DNA of 64,000 nt from Chrysophaeum taylorii. Lineage: Eukaryota > Sar > Pelagophyceae > Pelagomonadales > Pelagomonadaceae. Positions 53,093 through 64,000 of the stretch are shown here, one piece after another. Where the stretch lies: the NCBI GenBank assembly GCA_029834535.1, contig JAQMWT010000029.1:1-64000 (forward strand), read 5' to 3'. The notes beneath the pieces were generated by a model, which was not told the DNA's origin, did not search any database, and was given only the letters and a program-made list of their open reading frames with translations. How positions within the stretch are numbered: position 1 is the stretch's first letter; every line of letters begins with the position of its first letter. The position numbers were made by a program, and so were the translations under genes.

Positions 53093-54293
53093 CTACTCAT
53101 CATCACTATTATCCTCCAGTTTCTTTAACTCTCGAGGGGGAGAATCATGATCTTCGGATTGGTCGTTAGCAGTATTGTTTGTAGTAATAGCATCACTGAG
53201 GGCGACCAGGGGTGCCATAACAGAAGAGAGGAAGGACATAGCTGCGTCCGGTGTTAAAGTATGCAAGTCTGTTGCTGGGATGACTTGATCCTGTGCACCA
53301 GACATAGTGGTATGTAAGTTATGAGCTGCATCGTCGATTAGAGTTTGCTGTGCCTCGTCATAAGTATTTGGAGGAAACTGTCCAATAGACGAAAGGAGCG
53401 ATCGTGAGATTATGTGGACAAAGACAGCAAGGGTAGGTATCATTGTATCTTGGTGCATTTGGTGGCTATATTATCCAAGAGCGCGACATGTTTTAGATTT
53501 TCGGTTACATGAGCGTTTAAGGTGTCGTAAGCTTCTTGTAGCTGAGTTAAGTTCTTTAGTGCAATCGATAGTTGTTGGTTTCGTGCCATCAAGTGCTGCT
53601 CACTGTTAGTGAGACGTGAGGATAAGGATTGAATTTCCCCTTTTAACTGGCGTAAAGATTCAACCTCATTGTCGTTAGGTTCGTCTGGCGTGGGTTCAGC
53701 AGATGGAGTTTCGACAGGTGCTGGTGTTTCACCTTCCGATAATATATTATCTGAAAAGGCATCAATTATAGCAGAGGGATAGCCAACCTGGACTAACACG
53801 TTTTTGAAAGCAGTCTGATGCTCAGGTGAAAGTTGACGAAAGTAATTTCACATTGGCGGTACCCTCTCGCGAGAAGTGTCATTAAGCTGGTGAAAGACAT
53901 CTTTAACGAAACTCTCAAGGAGCACATTAAGTAGCTCGTCAGGATTAGTCACGACACAGATTTTATCTTCAACAGACTGTAGTAATGACTAAGCCGCGAC
54001 AAGAATCTCAAAATTTGCGTTCGAGATATAAGGCAGCTGTAACAAGAGAGGAGCGTCGGCGTCAGGGTTGATGATGATTTTAGAAGCATCCAAGTTATGG
54101 ATAGCCATACATTTCATGAGCGCCTCTTTAAGCAGCTTGTTGATTACAATGGACTTTCCAAAGCGGAGAATAGTGGCTCTCATGTGTGCAGCTGGATCTG
54201 CAGAGCATTTAGCAAGCAGTGGTAAGTCACCTGGGGAACCATCCCGTCTCATCATGAACGTCTGGAAGTATTTAATTCGGGGAATGAAAGGGT
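53093..54293 (-). pseudogene. Broken retroelement ORF related to ORF3
   Basis: Three minus-strand open stretches (about 54293-53989, 53799-53440 and 53458-53093) are separated by in-frame stops and one frame change. The first reads FIPRIKYFQTF then DLPLLAKCSADPAAHMRATI. The second holds a coiled coil (LRQLKGEIQSLSSRLTNSEQ). The block AHMRATILR resembles GHIRATIIR in the intact 662-aa ORF at 54655-56643, which also has a coiled coil near its C-terminal third. I read this as a decayed relative of that ORF. The similarity is short, so the relation is tentative. Confidence 0.5.
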
Positions 54294-54654
54294 ATGTTCC
54301 CTATATCCTCAGAACACGACAGGCGGCATCTAGAACTACACGAGAAATGTAATGTGTATAGTGCTACATACTTCGGGGCGCGCTAGACCATGATGATGAG
54401 CTTAAGCACAAATCAGAGGACTATTAGAAAGGAAGAAGAAGGGTAAGGATGACATCACGTTCTCAACGGACGGATAAGGGTAAGAGGCAGCAGATTTCTC
54501 TGCACCCCCTCGAGATGTCTTAAGCGCAAGGTGCGACTATAGAGCATCTCTTGAGAAAGATGATGATGAAGGAAGAAAAAAAAAGAAAAAAAAGGAATAC
54601 AGTCTTGATGGTCACAGAGGTCACATACGAAGCATCAAGAGTGTAAGACATGTC

Positions 54655-56643
54655 TTAGGACTTGGATTTGGTGGAGCTGAGAGTCGACTTGACGCTTTTG
54701 AACAGAGCATTACGAAACACTGGTATAACTGACAGTGTGTTAGGATTATCTGAGGTGGTAGACATCGTTACTGGTTCGAGAGTTTCGGTATCGTCGTCGT
54801 CAGCTTCTGTTGTAAGGTGTTGAACACCAATAGCAGAATGGTGTGGTACCATGCGAAATGTAAGTGCAAGTAAAGCATTCAGTATGGATGGCACCAATGA
54901 GTCAAGTTGTAGAGTACTCAGTTGTGTTTCCAAGAAATTGGACTCAGCGAGCGGATCTGAGAAGATAGAAGGGTCTTCCGATTCACATGCTAAGGGAATA
55001 CTTTGAAGACACGAGAGCAGATTATCACGCAGATGATGGAGGTGATCGTCCGGGGAGGCGTGATTGGCAGCATATTGGTCATAGGCTGTGAGAGTTAAAC
55101 GAGACAGCAGCTCTGTGACCTTGTATAGTGTTATGAGTAACACGTGTGCATTGGCAGTAGGAGGGAAGAGCCGGTTCTCCAGGGAAGTGATTGAAGCAAT
55201 GGCAGACTGTAGATCAGTGCGCAGAGATAGATTTTCAGCGCTGAGGGTGTTGATTTTGCGGATGTATAGGCGAAGAGTTTCCTGGAGTTGCTCGACTTGC
55301 TGATGTAAGGCAACGACATCAACCGAGGCAGAGGAGGCAGGGTGAGTCGATGGCGAGGTTCTTTCCAGGGTAGGTTCCGATGTAGGGAGTGAGGAGTTTA
55401 ACGACGTCTCGGTCAACACATGCTGTGTAAGTAGGGGGTATTTCGCGTTTAGAAAGTGCAGAAAGTCTTGATGTTCTGCCGGAGTATAAGTATAAGTGGG
55501 GCCGAACATTACATCCAGGAGTGATGGCGGTTTTGTATCATCTGAGGATGATACGTAGTCGTCAAGATGTTGTACCCACGATTGGGCAACAGTATTAATC
55601 ACATGGTGGGATTTGGAGGGCTTGAACATAGCCTGGGCTTTGCGACCCTGTGTTCGAACAAGAGTTACAAGAAAGTTAAGATGCTCAAGGTGCATCTGAG
55701 TAATAAGCCGAAGATCCAGTGCGAATGGCAGTTGAGTGGTGGAATCTGTGGCTGTATCGGATACCGATAGGATTAAATGAGCAAGTGACGGGTATTCCGT
55801 TAGGTTGCTAGTCAAAAGAGTATATAACTCTTTTGGCAAATAATAGGTGCGTATGATGGTTGCGCGTATATGACCAGCTGAGCACGCATCACAGGGGGAT
55901 TGGAAGGAAGTAGCATTGCGGGCACATACAGTAGGTTGTATAGGCACCTGATCGGTGTTGTGACAAGCACAGCAAATGATCATGGTAATGGTTGAAATGG
56001 GGATGTGACCATTCTTCTTATGGTCGTCCGTGTTGAGGTGACTCAGCACTTCAGTGGGGAGTTCACGAGGTGTTTGTGACTTCGAACTGTATGTGGTAGA
56101 GACAAGGAAGGTAGGTTGTCCCAAATTGTTGAGGCATTGCGCACAAAAGGATGACAAAATGAAACGTTCGCGTTCGGGGCCTCTGTAGCAGCCAATAGAA
56201 GCAATAGCAGGAGCAGCTTCCCAAGGTATAGTAATGGGTAGGCGCATGGATATGAATGTTGTTAGTTCCACAAACAGTGAAAGGTCAGTAGACTCATAGA
56301 TCGAGTTGAGTGCCGTAGAGATTTCCGCTCGCATAAAAGAAGAGAGAAAGGGGGTGGCAGGGACACGGAAGTTCTCAAAGAGAGAGATTCCTCGTTCAAA
56401 CAGGGAAAAATCCATGTTGAGGCCATCCTGGAGTGTTAGGGATTGATGTAAGGTATGTTCAGCTGGTGTCGGTGCGACAGCAGCAGCCTGGGAGGTAGCA
56501 GGAGTAACAGTGGTCATGGGTTGTCGCTTTTGCGACAACTTGGGAGAAGGTTCGGCCGTGGAGAGCGAGCGTGGAATTGTCCTTCGAACGACTGGAGAGA
56601 TGCCGCGGCCACGGGAGTGCCAAGAAAAAGACATGAGCGACAC
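54655..56643 (-). CDS. Retroelement ORF3, coiled-coil protein with Cys-rich segment
   Basis: 662 aa, unrecognised. It follows RNase H in the same frame after a TGA and a TAG. Features are a basic, Thr/Ser-rich N-terminus, then a cysteine-rich middle resembling a zinc-binding module (FCAQCLN, ICCACHNTD, CARN, CDACSAGH at residues ~165-265). A helical domain follows, then a coiled coil near residues 445-490 (LHQQVEQLQETLRLYIRKIN), and an acidic then basic tail. The T-E-T-S-L-N motif occurs at 55394-55415. It could be a displaced gag-like or envelope-position protein. The long intact frame suggests recent activity. Confidence 0.6.
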   Translation of the reverse strand: MSLMSFSWHSRGRGISPVVRRTIPRSLSTAEPSPKLSQKRQPMTTVTPATSQAAAVAPTPAEHTLHQSLTLQDGLNMDFSLFERGISLFENFRVPATPFLSSFMRAEISTALNSIYESTDLSLFVELTTFISMRLPITIPWEAAPAIASIGCYRGPERERFILSSFCAQCLNNLGQPTFLVSTTYSSKSQTPRELPTEVLSHLNTDDHKKNGHIPISTITMIICCACHNTDQVPIQPTVCARNATSFQSPCDACSAGHIRATIIRTYYLPKELYTLLTSNLTEYPSLAHLILSVSDTATDSTTQLPFALDLRLITQMHLEHLNFLVTLVRTQGRKAQAMFKPSKSHHVINTVAQSWVQHLDDYVSSSDDTKPPSLLDVMFGPTYTYTPAEHQDFLHFLNAKYPLLTQHVLTETSLNSSLPTSEPTLERTSPSTHPASSASVDVVALHQQVEQLQETLRLYIRKINTLSAENLSLRTDLQSAIASITSLENRLFPPTANAHVLLITLYKVTELLSRLTLTAYDQYAANHASPDDHLHHLRDNLLSCLQSIPLACESEDPSIFSDPLAESNFLETQLSTLQLDSLVPSILNALLALTFRMVPHHSAIGVQHLTTEADDDDTETLEPVTMSTTSDNPNTLSVIPVFRNALFKSVKSTLSSTKSKS
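55394..55415 (-). repeat. SLNY motif copy 5 (SLNS)
   Basis: Reads T-E-T-S-L-N-S inside ORF3, just before the Ser/Thr-rich linker that leads to its coiled coil. Confidence 0.6.
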
Positions 56644-56733: not shown

Positions 56734-59700
56734 TCAATCCTGTAAAGGATTGTCGTCAGAGGCATGATGCATACCGAGTAGAGAGCGAAAGGTGGAGAAC
56801 TCAGCAGCAAGTGGCTTTGTAAAACCATCCGCCACGTTTAGCTTGCCGGGAACATGATGGACTCGTATTTTCTGTAGCGAGATGTACTCACGGATCTTAA
56901 ACCATCTGGTCGACAGTGCCTTGGATCGAGAAGACCCATCTGGGTTATTAGAGGTGTGAACAGCGGCAGCATTGTCAGACAAGAGAGGTAGGCTTCTGAT
57001 GAAGCGCATATCTTCAGCAATTGGGTTGTCATTGTCATCGAAGTCAACAGGATCAGCGGTGTTCTCACCATTAGCATTGTTGACGTAGAAGGTGGGGTTG
57101 ACGACAAAGGAGAGTTCCAACAGCAGCTTGCGTAGCCAAACAGCTTCATCAGCACAAATACTGAGGGCAATCAACTCAGCTTCGTGAGTTGAGCAGGAGA
57201 CAATCGGTTGAAGTTTGCTTTTCCAACCAATAAGGCAGTTGAAAAGATAGAAGACAAACCCGGTGGTAGATTTCCTATCTTCCTGTGCTAAGGAAGGGGC
57301 GTTGTCAGCGTCAACCATGGCAACTAAGGGATCAAACTGTCCAGTAGATACATCCTGCGGTTGGTAGTCGACCACAGTGGATAGATCAATTCGATTAGCG
57401 GAGACAGTGCGAAGGTGAGCTTCAATGGCATTACCTTTAGGATGGAACCAGAGGCGAAGTGAGCGGTTTTCCGGCTTCTTGAGGTAGCGAAGCAAATGCT
57501 CTAGCATTTGGACGTGAACATACGTGGGTGCATGCATACCACGCGAACATCTGCCCAAGGCTTGCGAGAAGTCAGGTCTGCAGGCAACTTGCATGAACAC
57601 CAGCTTGCCAAGGAGGGTGGCAAAGTGCGAATTGATGTACAACTCTGTTTCAGAGCTGGGAGTGCCATCTTTATACTTGAAGGACGATGACATAGGATAT
57701 TTAAGCGGGGTCAGTTGCTGCAAGACTGGGTGATCAGCGAAGAGTTCATCCAGCTTGGCTTGCACATCCAGAGAAATGGAACCGTCAGATGTGCGACACA
57801 CACGCATGCCTAGGAGGGTATGGACAGGTTCAAACTGCTCTACAGCATACCGTTTGTGGAGGGCATCCTGTAACTCAGTACGAAGAGGGTCGTCATTGGA
57901 CACAATAACAATGTCGTCTACAGACAGACTGCATACGACGAACTTAGCATGTGCGGATACTCGAGCATATAGGCAAGAGTCCGAATGCAGGCGTTTGTAG
58001 CCAAGGCTACGGAAGAAGCCGTCTATCTCTTTGTTCCAAAGAGATGGTGATTGCCGAAGTCCATAAAGTGACTTCAGCAGTTTCGGTAGACGTCGGCCCT
58101 TGTACTTAGCGTCATCGGGGTCGATAAGCTTGATGCCGTCTGGTAACTGAACATAGACGTTGGCATCAATGTCAGACTGAACGAAGGCGTTCGGGACGTC
58201 TGCATGGTAGACAGGCAATTGCTTGTATGCTGCAATAGCTAGTAGTACCCGGATTGCGGTCATTGTGGCCATGGGGCTGAAGGTGCCAAAGAAATCGGCG
58301 CCAAGAGATGCTAGGAAGCCACGTAGCACGAGGCGAGCCTTGTGCTTGACGTATTTGCCTGCAGAGTCTGTTTTAATCTTCAGCACCATCCTGCTGTCAA
58401 TAGGACGAGAGACACCGTCGGGTAAGGAAAGTTTGAAGCAGCCAAAGCGGATAATGTCGTGGAGTTCCTTGGCGATGGCCTTGAGGTAGGCGTGCCTGTT
58501 TTCAGGCGACAAACCGTGGAGGCACTTGAGTTTATATTCGTCAATGGAAACGTCCGCTTCTTGGACCTTATATTCGTCAGGACCAACAGTGGCTGGTGAA
58601 TTGTAGTTTAACGACGTTGCGGTCGAGGCAGTGTGCGCAACTTCGGGATAAGCGGAAACAGCGTCAGTAGGAGTAGGAGAAGCAGATTCCAGTTGAATAT
58701 GGATAGTAGGGTCGGTGTGTAAGACCTGGGTGATAAACTCTGTAGAGACCAGAAGGTATTCCTCCAAGTCAGCCAGAGATGCAGAAGTAGCGCCAAACTC
58801 GGAGGAGTTGTGATCAATAAAGCTGGTCGGCGCCAGGTACGTAAGTGCATATTGTAAGGAAGAAGTGCCAAAGGCAGCAGCGTGTTCAGTGAACGCAGAT
58901 AAAAGGGGCTGAGGAATGGGGCACGTAGGTGAACCATCAGCAGTTAAAAAGGTTGCAGCTGGGATGCTGGATGCGCACTTGGCGTGGGCGAAGTAACCAT
59001 CGACGTGCGGGTAGCGGGCAAGTAAGTCAGTGCGCAACGGGAGAAGAAGACGAGCTAACAACGCATGTTTCCCCTCTGAGCAGATAGCAGACCAGAGGAT
59101 ACCACCATTGAGATGAAGGGCGGAGAGGGCGGGAGACTTGAACGTAAGAAAGTGGTGGCGAAGATCCCAGCGGAAATCGGCGAGTTTGCCACCAGCGGCT
59201 TTGTAAGCACCAATAGTAGACGCTTGCAGCCGGGCTTGGATATTTTTCATAGAAGTGGCCTTGCGGGTGTTAGGCTGTTTGGAACCTGGGACAAGAATGA
59301 GGTCATCTTGTGCAAAAAGGTCTTTGTAAGAAGGAAGCAAGGGCGGCGGTGACATAGAGCCAGAATCGTCGGCGAGAGCGTCAGAAGAGGGAGAAGAAGC
59401 AGGAGCAGGGGACGAAGAAGGAGCTGAAGGAGGTGGGGAGTGCCCCCTCTGAGGATGAGGAGTCCGTGTCCCCCTCTGAATGACATGGTCTTGGATAGCG
59501 GCGTGGGGTGTGAGCGAGAAAGGCGCGGGAGGAGCGTGAGGCGGAGGAGCAAGTTCAGGATCAGGAGTAGGATGCTGAAGCATGTAGAGGAATTGCAGCT
59601 TGGACGAAACACGAATTTGTCCGTTTTCAGGGTTGAGGACGACGTCAGCGAGATGGTCGACGCGTGGGGAGACGAGCGGGTTTTGCGCGTTGGCGCAACA

Positions 59701-60594
59701 GAGATATAAGTATTTGCGGCGGCACGGTTCCCACTTGTGGTGTTCATGGGGCTCCAATAGAAGGTAACATTCAGCGCCAAAAATCTTGAGCATGTCATGT
59801 TGGGGAGTGTTGAGTTGGTTGTAGAGTAGCTGTTGCGGACTCAGGATAGCATGATGAATGCGCTCGAGCGTGGCGTTCGGGAGAAGGTTGTAGCTTTGAA
59901 CGGTGTGTATCACCGCCCACGGAAACATGATGGCTGGTTCCACGATCTTGGCGCCACGATAGTGAGCATTAAGGAGAGAACGAAGGCGAGTTGAGGAGGC
60001 GGAGGCGATGAAACCGATGGCGGACTCAACTTCAAAGTTAAAGTGGTGCATGTACGGCGGGAAGGCGATGAGTTGAATGCCCTTATCGACGCGGTACGGG
60101 GAGGTAATGTGCTGGCTAAAGTAGGGCTTGAAGGCATCGGAGTAGAGGGTGCGCATGTGCACGTTGAGTTGTGTACGACAGAAGTCATACACAAAATCCA
60201 GAGCTTGAGTGAACTCCGTGGCGTTGGTGGTGCGTGTAAAGTACACCAAGAGAAATTTCGAAATGAGTTCCTTGAAGACGATGATATGTGTGAAGCCTCC
60301 CCATTCGGATGGGATGGTCACATAGCCGCCGTCGCACGCCCAGACTTCGCCGGCTTTGTGAGTTTGCTCAAAAGAAGGCTTGGTCGCATTGAAATGCTTG
60401 TGCGGGTGGCGCTTGTTGTGTGCGATGCAGTCGGTGCATAAGTCGCGATATGGTATGTCAGAAGCAGAGAATCCAGGGCGAGCAAGTACGTTGGGGGCCT
60501 TGGCAGCGACGTTGTCGGGGCAGTGATGCACCCGGTGGAAGCGATTGGCACGTTCTTTGGCATTGAGATATTCGGTGGATCCGTGTGCGAGGAC
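56734..60594 (-). CDS. pol: Copia pol: integrase, reverse transcriptase, RNase H
   Basis: About 1286 codons open, with no ATG at the left end, so it is read as part of a polyprotein. The integrase zinc finger is FHRVHHC with CTDC. The DDE core shows D in VWACDGGYV, D in LYSDAFKPY and E in NFEVESAIG. A Pro/Ser-rich spacer follows. The RT has VYHADVPNAFVQSDI, LKSLYGLRQSPSLWN and the catalytic S-V-D-D (copia usually Y-V-D-D). RNase H has MVDADNAPSLAQEDRKSTTG, CSTHEAELIAL, LLSDNAAAVH and VADGFTKPLA. All three activities look intact. The motif T-A-T-S-L-N-Y occurs at the integrase/RT spacer. It ends in TGA at 56734. Confidence 0.9.
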   Translation of the reverse strand, partial: VLAHGSTEYLNAKERANRFHRVHHCPDNVAAKAPNVLARPGFSASDIPYRDLCTDCIAHNKRHPHKHFNATKPSFEQTHKAGEVWACDGGYVTIPSEWGGFTHIIVFKELISKFLLVYFTRTTNATEFTQALDFVYDFCRTQLNVHMRTLYSDAFKPYFSQHITSPYRVDKGIQLIAFPPYMHHFNFEVESAIGFIASASSTRLRSLLNAHYRGAKIVEPAIMFPWAVIHTVQSYNLLPNATLERIHHAILSPQQLLYNQLNTPQHDMLKIFGAECYLLLEPHEHHKWEPCRRKYLYLCCANAQNPLVSPRVDHLADVVLNPENGQIRVSSKLQFLYMLQHPTPDPELAPPPHAPPAPFSLTPHAAIQDHVIQRGTRTPHPQRGHSPPPSAPSSSPAPASSPSSDALADDSGSMSPPPLLPSYKDLFAQDDLILVPGSKQPNTRKATSMKNIQARLQASTIGAYKAAGGKLADFRWDLRHHFLTFKSPALSALHLNGGILWSAICSEGKHALLARLLLPLRTDLLARYPHVDGYFAHAKCASSIPAATFLTADGSPTCPIPQPLLSAFTEHAAAFGTSSLQYALTYLAPTSFIDHNSSEFGATSASLADLEEYLLVSTEFITQVLHTDPTIHIQLESASPTPTDAVSAYPEVAHTASTATSLNYNSPATVGPDEYKVQEADVSIDEYKLKCLHGLSPENRHAYLKAIAKELHDIIRFGCFKLSLPDGVSRPIDSRMVLKIKTDSAGKYVKHKARLVLRGFLASLGADFFGTFSPMATMTAIRVLLAIAAYKQLPVYHADVPNAFVQSDIDANVYVQLPDGIKLIDPDDAKYKGRRLPKLLKSLYGLRQSPSLWNKEIDGFFRSLGYKRLHSDSCLYARVSAHAKFVVCSLSVDDIVIVSNDDPLRTELQDALHKRYAVEQFEPVHTLLGMRVCRTSDGSISLDVQAKLDELFADHPVLQQLTPLKYPMSSSFKYKDGTPSSETELYINSHFATLLGKLVFMQVACRPDFSQALGRCSRGMHAPTYVHVQMLEHLLRYLKKPENRSLRLWFHPKGNAIEAHLRTVSANRIDLSTVVDYQPQDVSTGQFDPLVAMVDADNAPSLAQEDRKSTTGFVFYLFNCLIGWKSKLQPIVSCSTHEAELIALSICADEAVWLRKLLLELSFVVNPTFYVNNANGENTADPVDFDDNDNPIAEDMRFIRSLPLLSDNAAAVHTSNNPDGSSRSKALSTRWFKIREYISLQKIRVHHVPGKLNVADGFTKPLAAEFSTFRSLLGMHHASDDNPLQD
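58604..58626 (-). repeat. SLNY motif copy 3
   Basis: Reads S-T-A-T-S-L-N-Y in the pol frame, in the spacer between integrase and reverse transcriptase. Confidence 0.7.
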
Positions 60595-60658: not shown

Positions 60659-61429
60659 CTAAGGCAGGGGAGGCGGTGCGTCGTCATCCTGGTGCGCAGC
60701 AGGGTCACTTGGAGGTGCATCCTCATCATCACGAGTAGCGAGAGTATCTTCGTAGGACGAAGATATATAGTTTAACGACATTTCGGTCAAGCAGTTGCTG
60801 GAAATAGACATCATAAAAGATTGTGCCAAAGACAAGGTATCTGTGCTGCACGTGGTGGAAGCTTGGTCAACGGTCATGAAATTGGATACATAGGATTTCT
60901 TCGTCACGGCAGCAGTATGTTGGAAGGTAGGGTCCAACATAAGGGATTTAATATCGGCAACGAGGAGCGAAAGGTGCTTGTACAGAGTGCTGTACGTACC
61001 GGCAGGCAGAGCATTGCTGAGCATGTCACAGCAAAGGTCATGGCGTAGAGACAAGAGGAAAGATTCCTGTTGTTTGGTGTGGTTGTTAGCACGAATCAAC
61101 TCCGGTCGAGTGGGGTAGCGTAATTTCCCGTTGCGAGGGTCGAGTAAAATAATATTGGCGTACCCTCGGACGGTGGGCAATGGAGCAAGCATGGAGTGGA
61201 TTTTAGAGCCGAGTTTGCGGTCACTTCCACGAAGGTACCCTATATAGCGACTATGAGATAAGTGGTGATCTTCCAGAGCAAAATGAGAATCCTTGTAGTC
61301 GAAAGAGTTGTCGGTGGCCTTGTAGGTAAGGCAGCCAGGCATCACAAGAGAGCATCTGGACAAGAGCTTTTGTATGGCGGTGCCATAGGTGGCAGCGGAG
61401 CCAACTTGGGGAGGGCTTGGACTATCCAC
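60659..61429 (-). CDS. DNA cytosine methyltransferase, C-terminal part (motifs IX-X)
   Basis: 256 codons in a frame shifted by -1 relative to the upstream DNMT part, which it overlaps by ~88 nt. Around residues 82-114, APLPTVRGYANIILLDPRNG then KLRYPTRPELIRANN matches the 'PxxT..G...ilDp.g..R.LTprE..R' segment and motif IX of C5 methyltransferases. Residues ~131-152 (DLCCDMLSNALPAGTYSTLY) match motif X ('y.qlGNaVp..va..l'). The tail is acidic. T-E-M-S-L-N-Y lies at 60768-60790, between the methyltransferase and integrase. Whether the frame change is mutation or programmed frameshifting cannot be told; I see no classic slippery heptamer. Confidence 0.72.
   Translation of the reverse strand: MDSPSPPQVGSAATYGTAIQKLLSRCSLVMPGCLTYKATDNSFDYKDSHFALEDHHLSHSRYIGYLRGSDRKLGSKIHSMLAPLPTVRGYANIILLDPRNGKLRYPTRPELIRANNHTKQQESFLLSLRHDLCCDMLSNALPAGTYSTLYKHLSLLVADIKSLMLDPTFQHTAAVTKKSYVSNFMTVDQASTTCSTDTLSLAQSFMMSISSNCLTEMSLNYISSSYEDTLATRDDEDAPPSDPAAHQDDDAPPPLP
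60768..60790 (-). repeat. SLNY motif copy 2
   Basis: Reads L-T-E-M-S-L-N-Y-I in the methyltransferase C-terminal frame. It is located between methyltransferase motif X and the integrase. Confidence 0.7.
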
Positions 61430-62688
61430 AAGTAACCCATAAACGGCTCCAAATATATGGACCTGTCCCGGTCGCGGGGAATGTCGGAAGCAGTGAACGT
61501 ATACGTGCTTCCAAACGCGTCAATGGAAGCATGATATTTGGTGGTGGCGTTCTCTATGGTGAGGTTGCCGTCAGAATGGTGGCCACCAGTTAAGAAGTAG
61601 GAGTTGTGTGATGTTGATGAGGTTGTAAGTAGTAACCTGTGTGACGGTTGGTTAGTTTCGAAAACGGTTATGTAATAGGACACAGGAGTGGGTGAGTTAG
61701 TGTGTAAGCTGGCAAACAAGTTATAGAGGATTGTAAAAACCTTGACGTGTATAGGGTAGGTTGCATTGGGTAGCGGCTCCATAGAGGAGCGTTTAAAGCA
61801 CAGCTGATGATAAGTACACTCGGATTGAACAGAGTGAGTACGTTGCTCGTGAGCCTGTTGTGAGTGAAGGCGAAGCAGTAACATATTGAGGGATTCAAGG
61901 TCAGCCATAGTAAGCTGAACAGAACCTGTGCGAGAGTAAGGTGCAAACGTTTTAGGAACGGGGATATATGGAGGATCGGGGAACACCCGGATCCAGTCTT
62001 TGGATACGTGTTTAGGTAGCCAAAGGCGCTTGGGAATAGCTTGTAGATCATCCACGATCTTTAGGAAGGGGCGTGGATGGAGGATAGGCCACGACAATTT
62101 AATTGGTCCAGTAGAATACCTGCGTGCGATGCATATCCATCTTTCTCTAGATTGGTAGTCGCCACAGAGGTAGGTCGGGAACCTATCAACAACATCGACA
62201 CAGTAATCGAGTGTAGTATGGATGAGATTGGCCACTGTGATGTGGTCTTGATGACAGTACTTATGCGGAGGCGTCATCTCAGCCAGTAGTACCAAGGGCT
62301 GGAGTAACTTGATGACAGACAGCATGCTGTCGAAAAGAGAATCGTCCAGCAGGCTGTGTAAGTCTTCTGTCTTATGCTGCTTTAGTAGATTCCTGTTCGT
62401 GCAGGGAGGAGTAATCTCAATTATATCACAATAGAATTTGCGCCTTTCCTCTGGTGAGATTAGGTGAAGATGGTTAATAAAGGCGGGGAGAGATTCAAAT
62501 AATAATACTGTAGGGAAACGGTGGCGTAACATACGAACAAGCGTATCATCAGACTCAACAACAACTTTTACATTGATATTTAAGCCTAAGTCATTAGTGG
62601 CTTGAGACAGGAACGCCGGAGTTGACAAACCAGAACAAAGTAACATGACAGAGGGTTTGCGGAGATTGGACTCTTGTGAGAGAAACAC
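61342..62688 (-). CDS. DNA cytosine methyltransferase, catalytic part (motifs I-VIII)
   Basis: 448 codons after an in-frame TGA behind the protease. Motif I/II reads VMLLCSGLSTPAFLSQATND with VVVESDDTLVRMLRHRFP. Motif IV, with the catalytic cysteine at about residue 96, is DIIEITPPCTNRN. Motif VI, with the catalytic glutamate at ~137, is PLVLLAEMTPP (usually E-N-V). Motif VIII is GDYQSRERWICIARR (usual Q-x-R-x-R). Spacing between motifs is that of C5-cytosine DNA methyltransferases. The remaining ~250 residues would be the target-recognition region. It sits between protease and integrase of the copia element. Catalytic residues are kept, but motif I lacks some glycines, so activity is uncertain. 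Confidence 0.78.
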   Translation of the reverse strand: MFLSQESNLRKPSVMLLCSGLSTPAFLSQATNDLGLNINVKVVVESDDTLVRMLRHRFPTVLLFESLPAFINHLHLISPEERRKFYCDIIEITPPCTNRNLLKQHKTEDLHSLLDDSLFDSMLSVIKLLQPLVLLAEMTPPHKYCHQDHITVANLIHTTLDYCVDVVDRFPTYLCGDYQSRERWICIARRYSTGPIKLSWPILHPRPFLKIVDDLQAIPKRLWLPKHVSKDWIRVFPDPPYIPVPKTFAPYSRTGSVQLTMADLESLNMLLLRLHSQQAHEQRTHSVQSECTYHQLCFKRSSMEPLPNATYPIHVKVFTILYNLFASLHTNSPTPVSYYITVFETNQPSHRLLLTTSSTSHNSYFLTGGHHSDGNLTIENATTKYHASIDAFGSTYTFTASDIPRDRDRSIYLEPFMGYLWIVQALPKLAPLPPMAPPYKSSCPDALL

Positions 62689-62703
62689 TGGGCGTGAGAG
62701 TAG

Positions 62704-64000
62704 TCAGGTTAATGGCTGCGTGTTTTGCTGAACAAACTTGTTCTGTTTCCGAAGATTGAGAACCAAAGGGCGAATCCACGGGCGATCTGGTAAAACTCTT
62801 TGGAGTAGGTAGTTGTAGTATGCCAGTAGATCCCTGTTTTCATGGTATCGCTTGAGCGGAAATGCGAGGGAACGAAGTTCGAGTTGCTTGTCGCGAGCGA
62901 TGTTGTAGGTGAGACAAGGGAGAGCGGGTAAATTAGCTGCTATGTAGTGTATGGGAATACGTACATCTTTGTCTATGCGGCTCGTGACAGCGCTGAGCTT
63001 TGGCTCAGCTCGATCATTGAACACAGTGGTCAGGTTCGTCTGGTTCCACTCGAGCATGCTCAGGATAGCGAGATGTCGGTCGTGCACTGGCTGAAGACAT
63101 AAAGCGAAGTCGATCTTAACATAGCCAACTTGTGGATGATCTGGTAGGGGAACAACAATGTTACGTGTTAACATCATGTGTGAGGCACGTTGTTGTCCAG
63201 TGGCTGTTTGAATAACAATCGGCGCGTATTTGGAGTCCAGTGGAATAATATGATTGGGTATTGCAAAATCGCAAGTGGACATCAATGAGATGGTAGCACA
63301 AGAGTCAAAATATAGAAAAGAACAATGTGGAGGGACACTGTTTACCTTCATGTAGTTGGTGAGGAAGGCGTTTTCCGAATGTGGGCAAGTAGTGGAGAGG
63401 CTGGCTGTGAAGAAGTTCTCCAGCAATAACAGATTCGTTGGAATAATAATCGGTTGAACAGGTGGTGATGGTTCGTCAGCCTCATCAGCCATGCCGTGCT
63501 TTTCATCAAATGACGATAGCGAAGTATGATCGGCATCCCTTTTGGTTTCGGCTTGTGGGTTGAGGGCAGATTGGACCTGTGAAGATAGCGAGGACAGTAA
63601 CGCTGGTGGTAAAGCCGAGATGGCGGAAGCAGTAAAGAGGTTAGGCACAATATTGGAGGGATTACCCTGTGTGTTGGGGGCATTCTTCGTGTCTGTAGTA
63701 GGAGGAGTTGCCTTTGGGGTGGGAGCAGTAACAACAGTATGGTGTTGTGGCTCCACGTAGTTTAACGACTTTTCGGTCGAGGATAGATGAACGTCTACAT
63801 CATAAATGATGTCTTCTGCAAACATGAGTTGTTCGTTTAGACGAAGTAAGTTACTGTTGTCCTCAGTAGATGTCGTTGACAGAATGTCAGCTGATTGTAA
63901 TAGAGTCTCAAATAACTTGTTGATATTCTGTTGTAGCTGAGCCGTGGTATCATTATCTGTCACATGCTTCGTAAGTTCACTACACTGTTCTCGCAGGGTG
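62704..64000 (-). CDS. Retroelement N-terminal polyprotein with aspartic protease (partial)
   Basis: The frame is open to the right edge, so the start is outside the window. The first ~60 visible residues are helical (LREQCSELTKHV...LFETLLQSADIL). T-E-K-S-L-N-Y follows at 63758-63780, then a Pro/Thr/Ser-rich linker. The protease core is CSFLYFDSCATISLMSTCDF, where D-S-C-A-T stands for the D-S/T-G-A of copia proteases. Further beta strands (APIVIQTATGQ, KIDFALCLQP, HLAILSMLEW) match the flap and the 'I-L-G-M/L' second half. G to C next to the catalytic Asp is unusual. The ORF stops at TGA 62704 and the frame continues into the DNMT. Confidence 0.72.
   Translation of the reverse strand, partial: TLREQCSELTKHVTDNDTTAQLQQNINKLFETLLQSADILSTTSTEDNSNLLRLNEQLMFAEDIIYDVDVHLSSTEKSLNYVEPQHHTVVTAPTPKATPPTTDTKNAPNTQGNPSNIVPNLFTASAISALPPALLSSLSSQVQSALNPQAETKRDADHTSLSSFDEKHGMADEADEPSPPVQPIIIPTNLLLLENFFTASLSTTCPHSENAFLTNYMKVNSVPPHCSFLYFDSCATISLMSTCDFAIPNHIIPLDSKYAPIVIQTATGQQRASHMMLTRNIVVPLPDHPQVGYVKIDFALCLQPVHDRHLAILSMLEWNQTNLTTVFNDRAEPKLSAVTSRIDKDVRIPIHYIAANLPALPCLTYNIARDKQLELRSLAFPLKRYHENRDLLAYYNYLLQRVLPDRPWIRPLVLNLRKQNKFVQQNTQPLT
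63758..63780 (-). repeat. SLNY motif copy 1
   Basis: Minus strand reads S-T-E-K-S-L-N-Y (TCGACCGAAAAGTCGTTAAA then CTA). It lies between the helical N-terminal region and the protease linker. Confidence 0.7.

Follow-up and report, generated by a model that had tools for sequence, protein, structure and literature searches.

The element and its methyltransferase-like region

The window analysed here is a stretch of 64,000 nucleotides from Chrysophaeum taylorii (C29:1-64000, in a genome of 70.8 Mb in 697 contigs), at one end of which lies most of a minus-strand long terminal repeat (LTR) retrotransposon of 12,126 bp, starting at 54199 and running past the window end. Between its protease-like and integrase parts this element has a region with the motifs of cytosine-5 methyltransferases (C5-MTases; as DNA methyltransferases, DNMTs), and homology leads us to conclude, with high confidence, that the element encodes and maintains a C5-MTase homologue. 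Enzymes of this type are recognised by Pro-Cys in motif IV, Glu in motif VI and Q-x-R-x-R in motif VIII. The N-terminal part of the region, 453 aa long (61345..62703, minus strand, like all frames and motifs given below), carries motif I/II (LLCSGLSTP, 62617-62643; VVESDD, 62545-62562), motif IV with the catalytic Cys (ITPPCTNRN, 62389-62415), motif VI with the Glu (LLAEMTPP, 62266-62289) and motif VIII (GDYQSRERWI, 62134-62163). The C-terminal part, 286 aa in a shifted frame (60659..61519), holds a motif IX-like segment, KLRYPTRPEL (61097-61126), and a motif X-like one, CDMLSNALP (61004-61030). These are the motifs that a sequence-only reading of the window had quoted, and they stand on the minus strand where that reading had placed them.

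The frames of the element follow each other in the order gag-protease, TGA, DNMT-like part (two frames in the window copy), integrase-reverse transcriptase (RT)-RNase H, and an open reading frame (ORF) of 662 aa. The gag-protease frame, of which the window holds the 3' part (62707..63999, extending past the window), has no Pfam match above cut-off, for a protease or otherwise; what resembles a protease is FDSCATISLMS at 63277-63309, where DSC has a Cys replacing the Gly of the usual D-S/T-G, and a pattern search recovered FDSCAT in 13 of 15 copies. The in-frame TGA at 62704..62706 separates this frame from the DNMT-integrase-RT frame. It is present in each of the 17 copies, among 18 compared, whose alignment spans it; the neighbouring bases vary, and the next codon is CTA in 11 of the 17. 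This conserved stop is a candidate readthrough site. The integrase-RT-RNase H frame (1286 aa, 56737..60594) matches RVT_2 at residues 724-944 (1.1e-41) and, under their own cut-offs, rve at residues 79-161 (0.0049) and SH3_retrovirus (3.4e-4). The RNase H, an HHCC-like motif of the integrase (60427-60528) and its putative acidic triad (60319-60342, 60121-60147 and 60013-60039) were read by eye, and the SVDD of the RT lies at 57901-57924.

As RVT_2 occurs with rve upstream in one frame, the order is that of Copia elements. The 3' LTR (306 bp, 54199..54504) and the 5' LTR (315 bp, outside the window at C29:66010-66324, L037), both on the minus strand, were delimited by self-BLAST and by reading their ends; both have TG..CA ends, they are 93.7% identical across 316 columns, and a target-site duplication of 5 bp, GGATC, stands on both outer flanks of the element. 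With its integrase upstream of a Copia-type RT, its TG..CA LTRs and its target duplication, the element is a Ty1/copia-type LTR retrotransposon. The placing of a C5-methyltransferase-type domain between the protease and the integrase of a Copia element, as first read from the sequence, is thus supported, with the protease assigned by motif only.

Copies, selection and related families

Searching the genome with the DNMT region, with 93 of 1490 candidates scored so that the counts are lower bounds, gave at least 97 matching stretches, which amount to at least 90 copies (a few stretches being pieces of one copy); we call them family A. By hand count 55 of the 97 stretches have no internal stop. 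In 11 of the 13 copies listed, which were picked partly for long frames, the DNMT region lies, after the upstream stop, within an open frame longer than 700 aa. The longest, of 1691 aa (in C42), takes in the DNMT part together with an integrase-like part and RVT_2. When 18 copies are laid on this frame, the PPC of motif IV, the Glu of motif VI and the Q-x-R-x-R of motif VIII are kept in 18/18, CSGLS of motif I in 16/18 and N-A-x-P of motif X in 17/18. The retention of the catalytic Cys and Glu, first noticed in the window copy, hence extends to every copy compared. That other copies carry the region at all, which had been put forward as a check, is likewise found in 18/18, for copies that were obtained by searching with that very region; copies lacking it were not looked for.

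The ratio of nonsynonymous to synonymous substitution rates (dN/dS) was averaged over pairs of these 18 copies, 153 for DNMT and integrase and 78 for RT. It amounts to 0.155 for motifs I-VIII, 0.138 for motifs IX-X and 0.207 for the whole DNMT (153/153 pairs below 1), to be compared with 0.161 for the integrase, 0.205 for the RT, and 0.387 and 0.287 for two linkers, the latter being that between integrase and RT. Since dN/dS is lower in the motif regions than in the linkers of the same copies, the amino acids of these regions are themselves selected: the DNMT motif regions are under purifying selection.

Family A is confirmed as a DNMT-bearing element family, and the first reading needs the correction that the genome contains several such families, two further Copia and one Gypsy. 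Family A' (L038, L039, L042-L044) has the same domain at 47-53% identity. Family B (L026-L033), also Copia, has one frame of 1934 aa with PF00145 (1.1e-7), rve (0.006, below cut-off) and RVT_2 (2.3e-38); its DNMT stands between the protease (DGGAS) and the integrase, within a single frame in L033. In the Gypsy family C (L034 and L035; G000:C235 and C686) PF00145 scores 22.8 bits in L034 and 23.5 in L035, with the DNMT upstream of the RT, and in L035 RVT_1 and RNase H share a 1286-aa frame with it. The model ranges of the 121 matches of a PF00145 search of the genome suggest further B and C copies in addition to the eight B and two C loci read. Of 150 RVT_2 matches in the genome, six that had not been listed under family A had their neighbouring stretches read (L038-L040 and L042-L044); one of the six, L040, is family A by eye and stops short of the DNMT.

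Between A and A' the identity is 64% for RT, 60% for integrase and 53 and 51% for DNMT; between A and B it is 38% for RT, 26% for integrase and 26% for DNMT motifs IX-X. As the three identities fall in step, less far for A' than for B, a single capture fits best, and most likely one capture preceded the split of the Copia families A, A' and B. On the other hand no profile match beyond shuffles was found between family A and the Gypsy family C, nor any between A2 and A3. Since the Gypsy DNMT matches the Copia DNMT no better than shuffles do, a separate capture by the Gypsy lineage is likely.

Some other features of the element and its host may be described here. Immediately after the 5' LTR stands GGTTATGGGCCCAG, a candidate primer site which we take to be the complement of the anticodon-arm sequence of initiator tRNA-Met, and a G-run precedes the 3' LTR. 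A tRNA-like pattern with a core complementary to GGTTATGGGCCCAG occurs at nine places of the genome; at the three that were read, 12 to 14 bases are complementary and ARAGORN calls no tRNA gene. The loci L049-L051 resemble initiator tRNA-Met in its 3' half, lack a tRNA-like 5' half and are not called as tRNA by ARAGORN. In the env position, after pol, the 662-aa ORF (54658..56643, minus strand) is coiled-coil-like by weak Pfam matches, none at cut-off. At least 73 genome stretches match it, and among the matches listed a hand comparison places at least 21 downstream of a same-strand DNMT match, at a distance of 5.9-8.1 kb; this ORF is conserved together with the element in many copies. At L041 (G000:C344:78700-81200) an ORF like it is found directly upstream of an A' element, so that adjacent or nested elements are indicated. 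The host assembly also contains a plastid-type contig with psaA/psaB, and 84 matches of light-harvesting complex type; an exact small-subunit pattern of 18 bases had no match, and PsaB matched many PDB chains about equally well, so that no lineage was derived from it.

Relatives of the domain

Relatives were sought among proteins by scoring each time about 8000 candidates sharing most words with the query. One relative from elsewhere was obtained with the intact copy P0001 as query and two with A1; among the same number of scored candidates family B retrieved none. P0003 (269 aa, 39% identical, E 8.5e-81 to the family-A profile) matches PF00145 at 6.1e-5 with 23.0 bits, above the 22-bit cut-off. 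P0002, a transcript from an MMETSP source, is 42% identical and reaches 4.4e-4 with 20.2 bits, below this cut-off. Both matches cover residues including motifs IV-VIII. When P0001 is aligned with two A' sequences and with P0002 and P0003, the Pro-Cys of motif IV, E-M-T-P-P-H of motif VI and G-D-x-Q-x-R-E-R-W-I of motif VIII are invariant, the A' rows stopping short of motif I. When P0002 was used to search the genome (105 of 1056 candidates scored), the 105 matches were 39-44% identical, mixing A and A' and lying for many of them outside the family-A list; since P0002 is at most 44% identical to any of these stretches, none of the genome sequence that was scored is a close copy of it. We also noted a DNMT-like match outside the window, at C29:72327-73379, about 6 kb past the 5' LTR; it is 41% identical to P0002 and probably belongs to an A' element.

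The PF00145-positive family B provides a second line of comparison. Its profile scores nine family-A genome copies at 5.0 to 10.2 bits and P0002 at 23.8, the best of 500 shuffles of one copy scoring 2.9. With hhalign the A and B profiles align at a score of 42.8 (E 1.4e-4), 60 column shuffles reaching no more than 24.9, and this match is collinear over motifs I-VIII and, weakly, over motifs IX-X. Reciprocally, the A8 profile matches all three B sequences tried (27.1, 23.3 and 18.5 bits), with at most 7.4 bits in 700 shuffles. Single sequences of A and B match significantly over motifs IX-X (E 3e-5, 26% identity). Other collections gave little: viral contigs had no match to P0001, A6 or A2, prokaryote genome contigs none to A6, and PDB sequences none to A1 or A2 up to E 1; the Gypsy-family query A3 retrieved from PDB three DNMT2-type chains at 0.077 to 0.72, too weak to use; and NCBIfam had nothing above cut-off for P0003, P0002, P0001 or the family-B frame.

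Because PF00145 fails on the window and on P0001 yet reaches its cut-off in the relative P0003, the domain is, judged by its homologies, a divergent C5-MTase homologue rather than a Pfam-scored member. The PF00145 search suggested from the sequence alone as a check therefore has two outcomes, none from the window protein itself and a match above cut-off from its relative. Altogether the identity of the domain is solid by homology and weak by direct Pfam and structure tests.

Possible role, rival explanations and known systems

How such an enzyme might serve the element can be proposed as follows. A common ancestor of several Copia families would have captured a DNMT gene, which these families then retained by selection. 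The enzyme would be made as part of pol by translation past the conserved TGA—by readthrough or re-initiation—hence in smaller amount, and it would be packaged with RT and integrase. It is the place of the DNMT in pol that suggests this packaging and an action on new cDNA, as was proposed for DIRS elements in PMC5890265, where retrotransposon DNMTs are also described as methylating CG de novo. The element's own complementary DNA (cDNA) would be methylated before integration, so that a new copy would arrive already marked, and the marked copy might escape a defence that targets unmethylated DNA, or be guided into a given chromatin state. We lean towards this proposal as a whole, i.e. a Copia family with a captured and selected C5-MTase, made past the TGA, packaged, and methylating its own cDNA before integration. 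The self-methylation of cDNA, considered as a step on its own, is a tentative idea that could well prove wrong.

Several observations weigh against these views and must be set beside them. The motifs of the window copy are split over two overlapping frames, which means that the reading frame of this copy shifts after motif VIII and before motif IX; the coding region that the sequence-only reading had joined over 62688-60659 does contain the motifs, but its frame, though open in other copies, is broken here. PF00145 matches neither the window frames (E up to 1) nor the intact copy P0001 (E up to 5). Compared as single sequences over motifs IV-VIII, A and B share 19% identity with no significant match (E 0.30). 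The family-A profile does not match, beyond shuffles, the two host-type DNMTs of the genome (L024 and L025), one a DNMT2-like protein (360 aa) and the other a DNMT domain within a frame of 2086 aa that was read over 844 aa. Structure prediction by AlphaFold2 stayed at low confidence, with a predicted local distance difference test score (pLDDT) of 32.5 for a first job (453 aa of the window with P0002) and of 47.6 for a second (P0003, P0002 and 290 aa of the window), strand-helix alternation being visible. Foldseek and VIA-align place NAD(P)-binding Rossmann enzymes first for this second model, with no DNMT among the best 50 of either list. An oxidoreductase reading of so weak a model was set aside, the Rossmann matches being taken as the default of too shallow an alignment. 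As regards selection, the copies used for dN/dS were chosen by match score and frame length and not at random, which favours intact ones, and the insert between motifs VIII and IX, at 0.285, is no lower than the integrase-RT linker. Finally, C-to-T differences between copies show no excess at CG (0.0392 versus 0.0401 at CHH; at third positions 0.0777 for CG and 0.0739 for other C), and as they are not raised there, heavy CG methylation of the copies is unsupported. For the CG observed/expected ratio, the part of the window occupied by the element gives 0.88 and six of the 18 copies give 0.91-0.96, versus 1.31 in window positions 1-52000, and this lower ratio may just reflect a different base composition.

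The missing deamination signature at CG, together with catalytic residues that are kept, would be accounted for if the protein were a C5-MTase by descent which acts on RNA or only binds nucleic acid, modifying or chaperoning the element RNA in the particle with no methylation of cDNA. PMC5890265 suggests RNA methylation for a LINE-borne (long interspersed nuclear element) DNMT inactive on DNA in yeast; the DIRS-borne DNMT of the same paper, on the contrary, methylates CG, and we hold this explanation to be unlikely without dismissing it. It is less easy still to suppose that the DNMT brings the element no replication step of its own and is kept through its coupling to pol, while it slows the element or marks other DNA to the benefit of the host. 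Host benefit is among the options named in PMC5890265, and in a protein that shares one frame with integrase and RT, selection for keeping the frame would alone limit disruption. The insert between motifs VIII and IX indeed resembles a linker, but the dN/dS of motifs I-VIII and IX-X lies below that of both linkers of the same frame, so that these amino acids are themselves selected; we hold the explanation to be quite improbable.

The domain could lastly be no methyltransferase at all, being some other Rossmann-type domain or an extension of the protease or integrase in which DNMT-like words arose by chance. The failure of PF00145 in the window and the resemblance of the weak model to NAD(P) Rossmann enzymes speak for this. 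Against this stand the PF00145 matches of P0003 and P0002 across motifs IV-VIII, the invariance of the motif IV, VI and VIII residues from P0001 to the two A' sequences, P0002 and P0003, and the profile match to the PF00145-positive family B in excess of shuffles; this last explanation is already mostly refuted and we give it very little credit.

Methyltransferases in mobile elements have been met before. For Symbiodinium, PMC5890265 reports hundreds of DNMTs within retrotransposons, of the DIRS and LINE kinds, and for Klebsormidium a DNMT in a Gypsy element; it states that the Copia elements of Symbiodinium have no DNMT domain. We likewise find a DNMT encoded within the element, present in many copies and subject to purifying selection. 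A close parallel is KnitGypsy-Dnmt3 of Klebsormidium nitens, an LTR element which also encodes its DNMT as part of Pol, in several copies and under purifying selection. It differs in being a Gypsy element with a Dnmt3 relative, whereas here a Copia element has a divergent DNMT without a match to either host-type DNMT of the genome. In kind, the Gypsy family of this genome (L034, L035) stands nearer to it than the Copia family does. SymbioDIRS-Dnmt3 and SymbioLINE-Dnmt, also from PMC5890265, share with our families the abundance of DNMTs in retrotransposons and the selection on the domain, but their carriers are DIRS and LINE elements and not Copia. PMC6338049 reports DNA methyltransferases (transposon-borne DAM/DCM) in Gypsy (Ty3/Gypsy) and DIRS elements, and PMC12477816 a ParB-methyltransferase in a Sola element, with N4-methylcytosine or N6-methyladenine as predicted product; these too are mobile elements bearing DNA methyltransferases, on Ty3/Gypsy, DIRS and Sola carriers instead of Copia. 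In PMC12344493 (2025) some DNMT3 members are said to be embedded in 'LTR Copia' and DIRS elements; this is a single passing mention, citing PMC5890265, whose Klebsormidium element is Gypsy, and no Copia element is described in section 5 of PMC12344493. That mention aside, no described Copia-DNMT element was found in open PMC papers, a search that left aside most subscription journals, preprints and supplementary files.

Silencing marks on transposons are normally laid by the host. The element described here may be able to mark DNA chemically by itself. A Copia lineage of high copy number with its own maintained methyltransferase takes a phenomenon known from Gypsy, LINE and DIRS elements into the second major superfamily of LTR elements, and in this genome Copia and Gypsy lineages both carry DNMTs. 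The many open copies make cDNA methylation by such elements directly testable. One might go further and imagine, as a doubtful but possible extension, that in a Copia clade a cytosine methyltransferase became a permanent component of the replication machinery before families A, A' and B diverged, and was retained as RT identity fell to 38%, with a relative, P0002, in another protist transcriptome; such elements would mark their own cDNA, so that their insertions would be epigenetically set from birth, and a Gypsy lineage would independently have done likewise.

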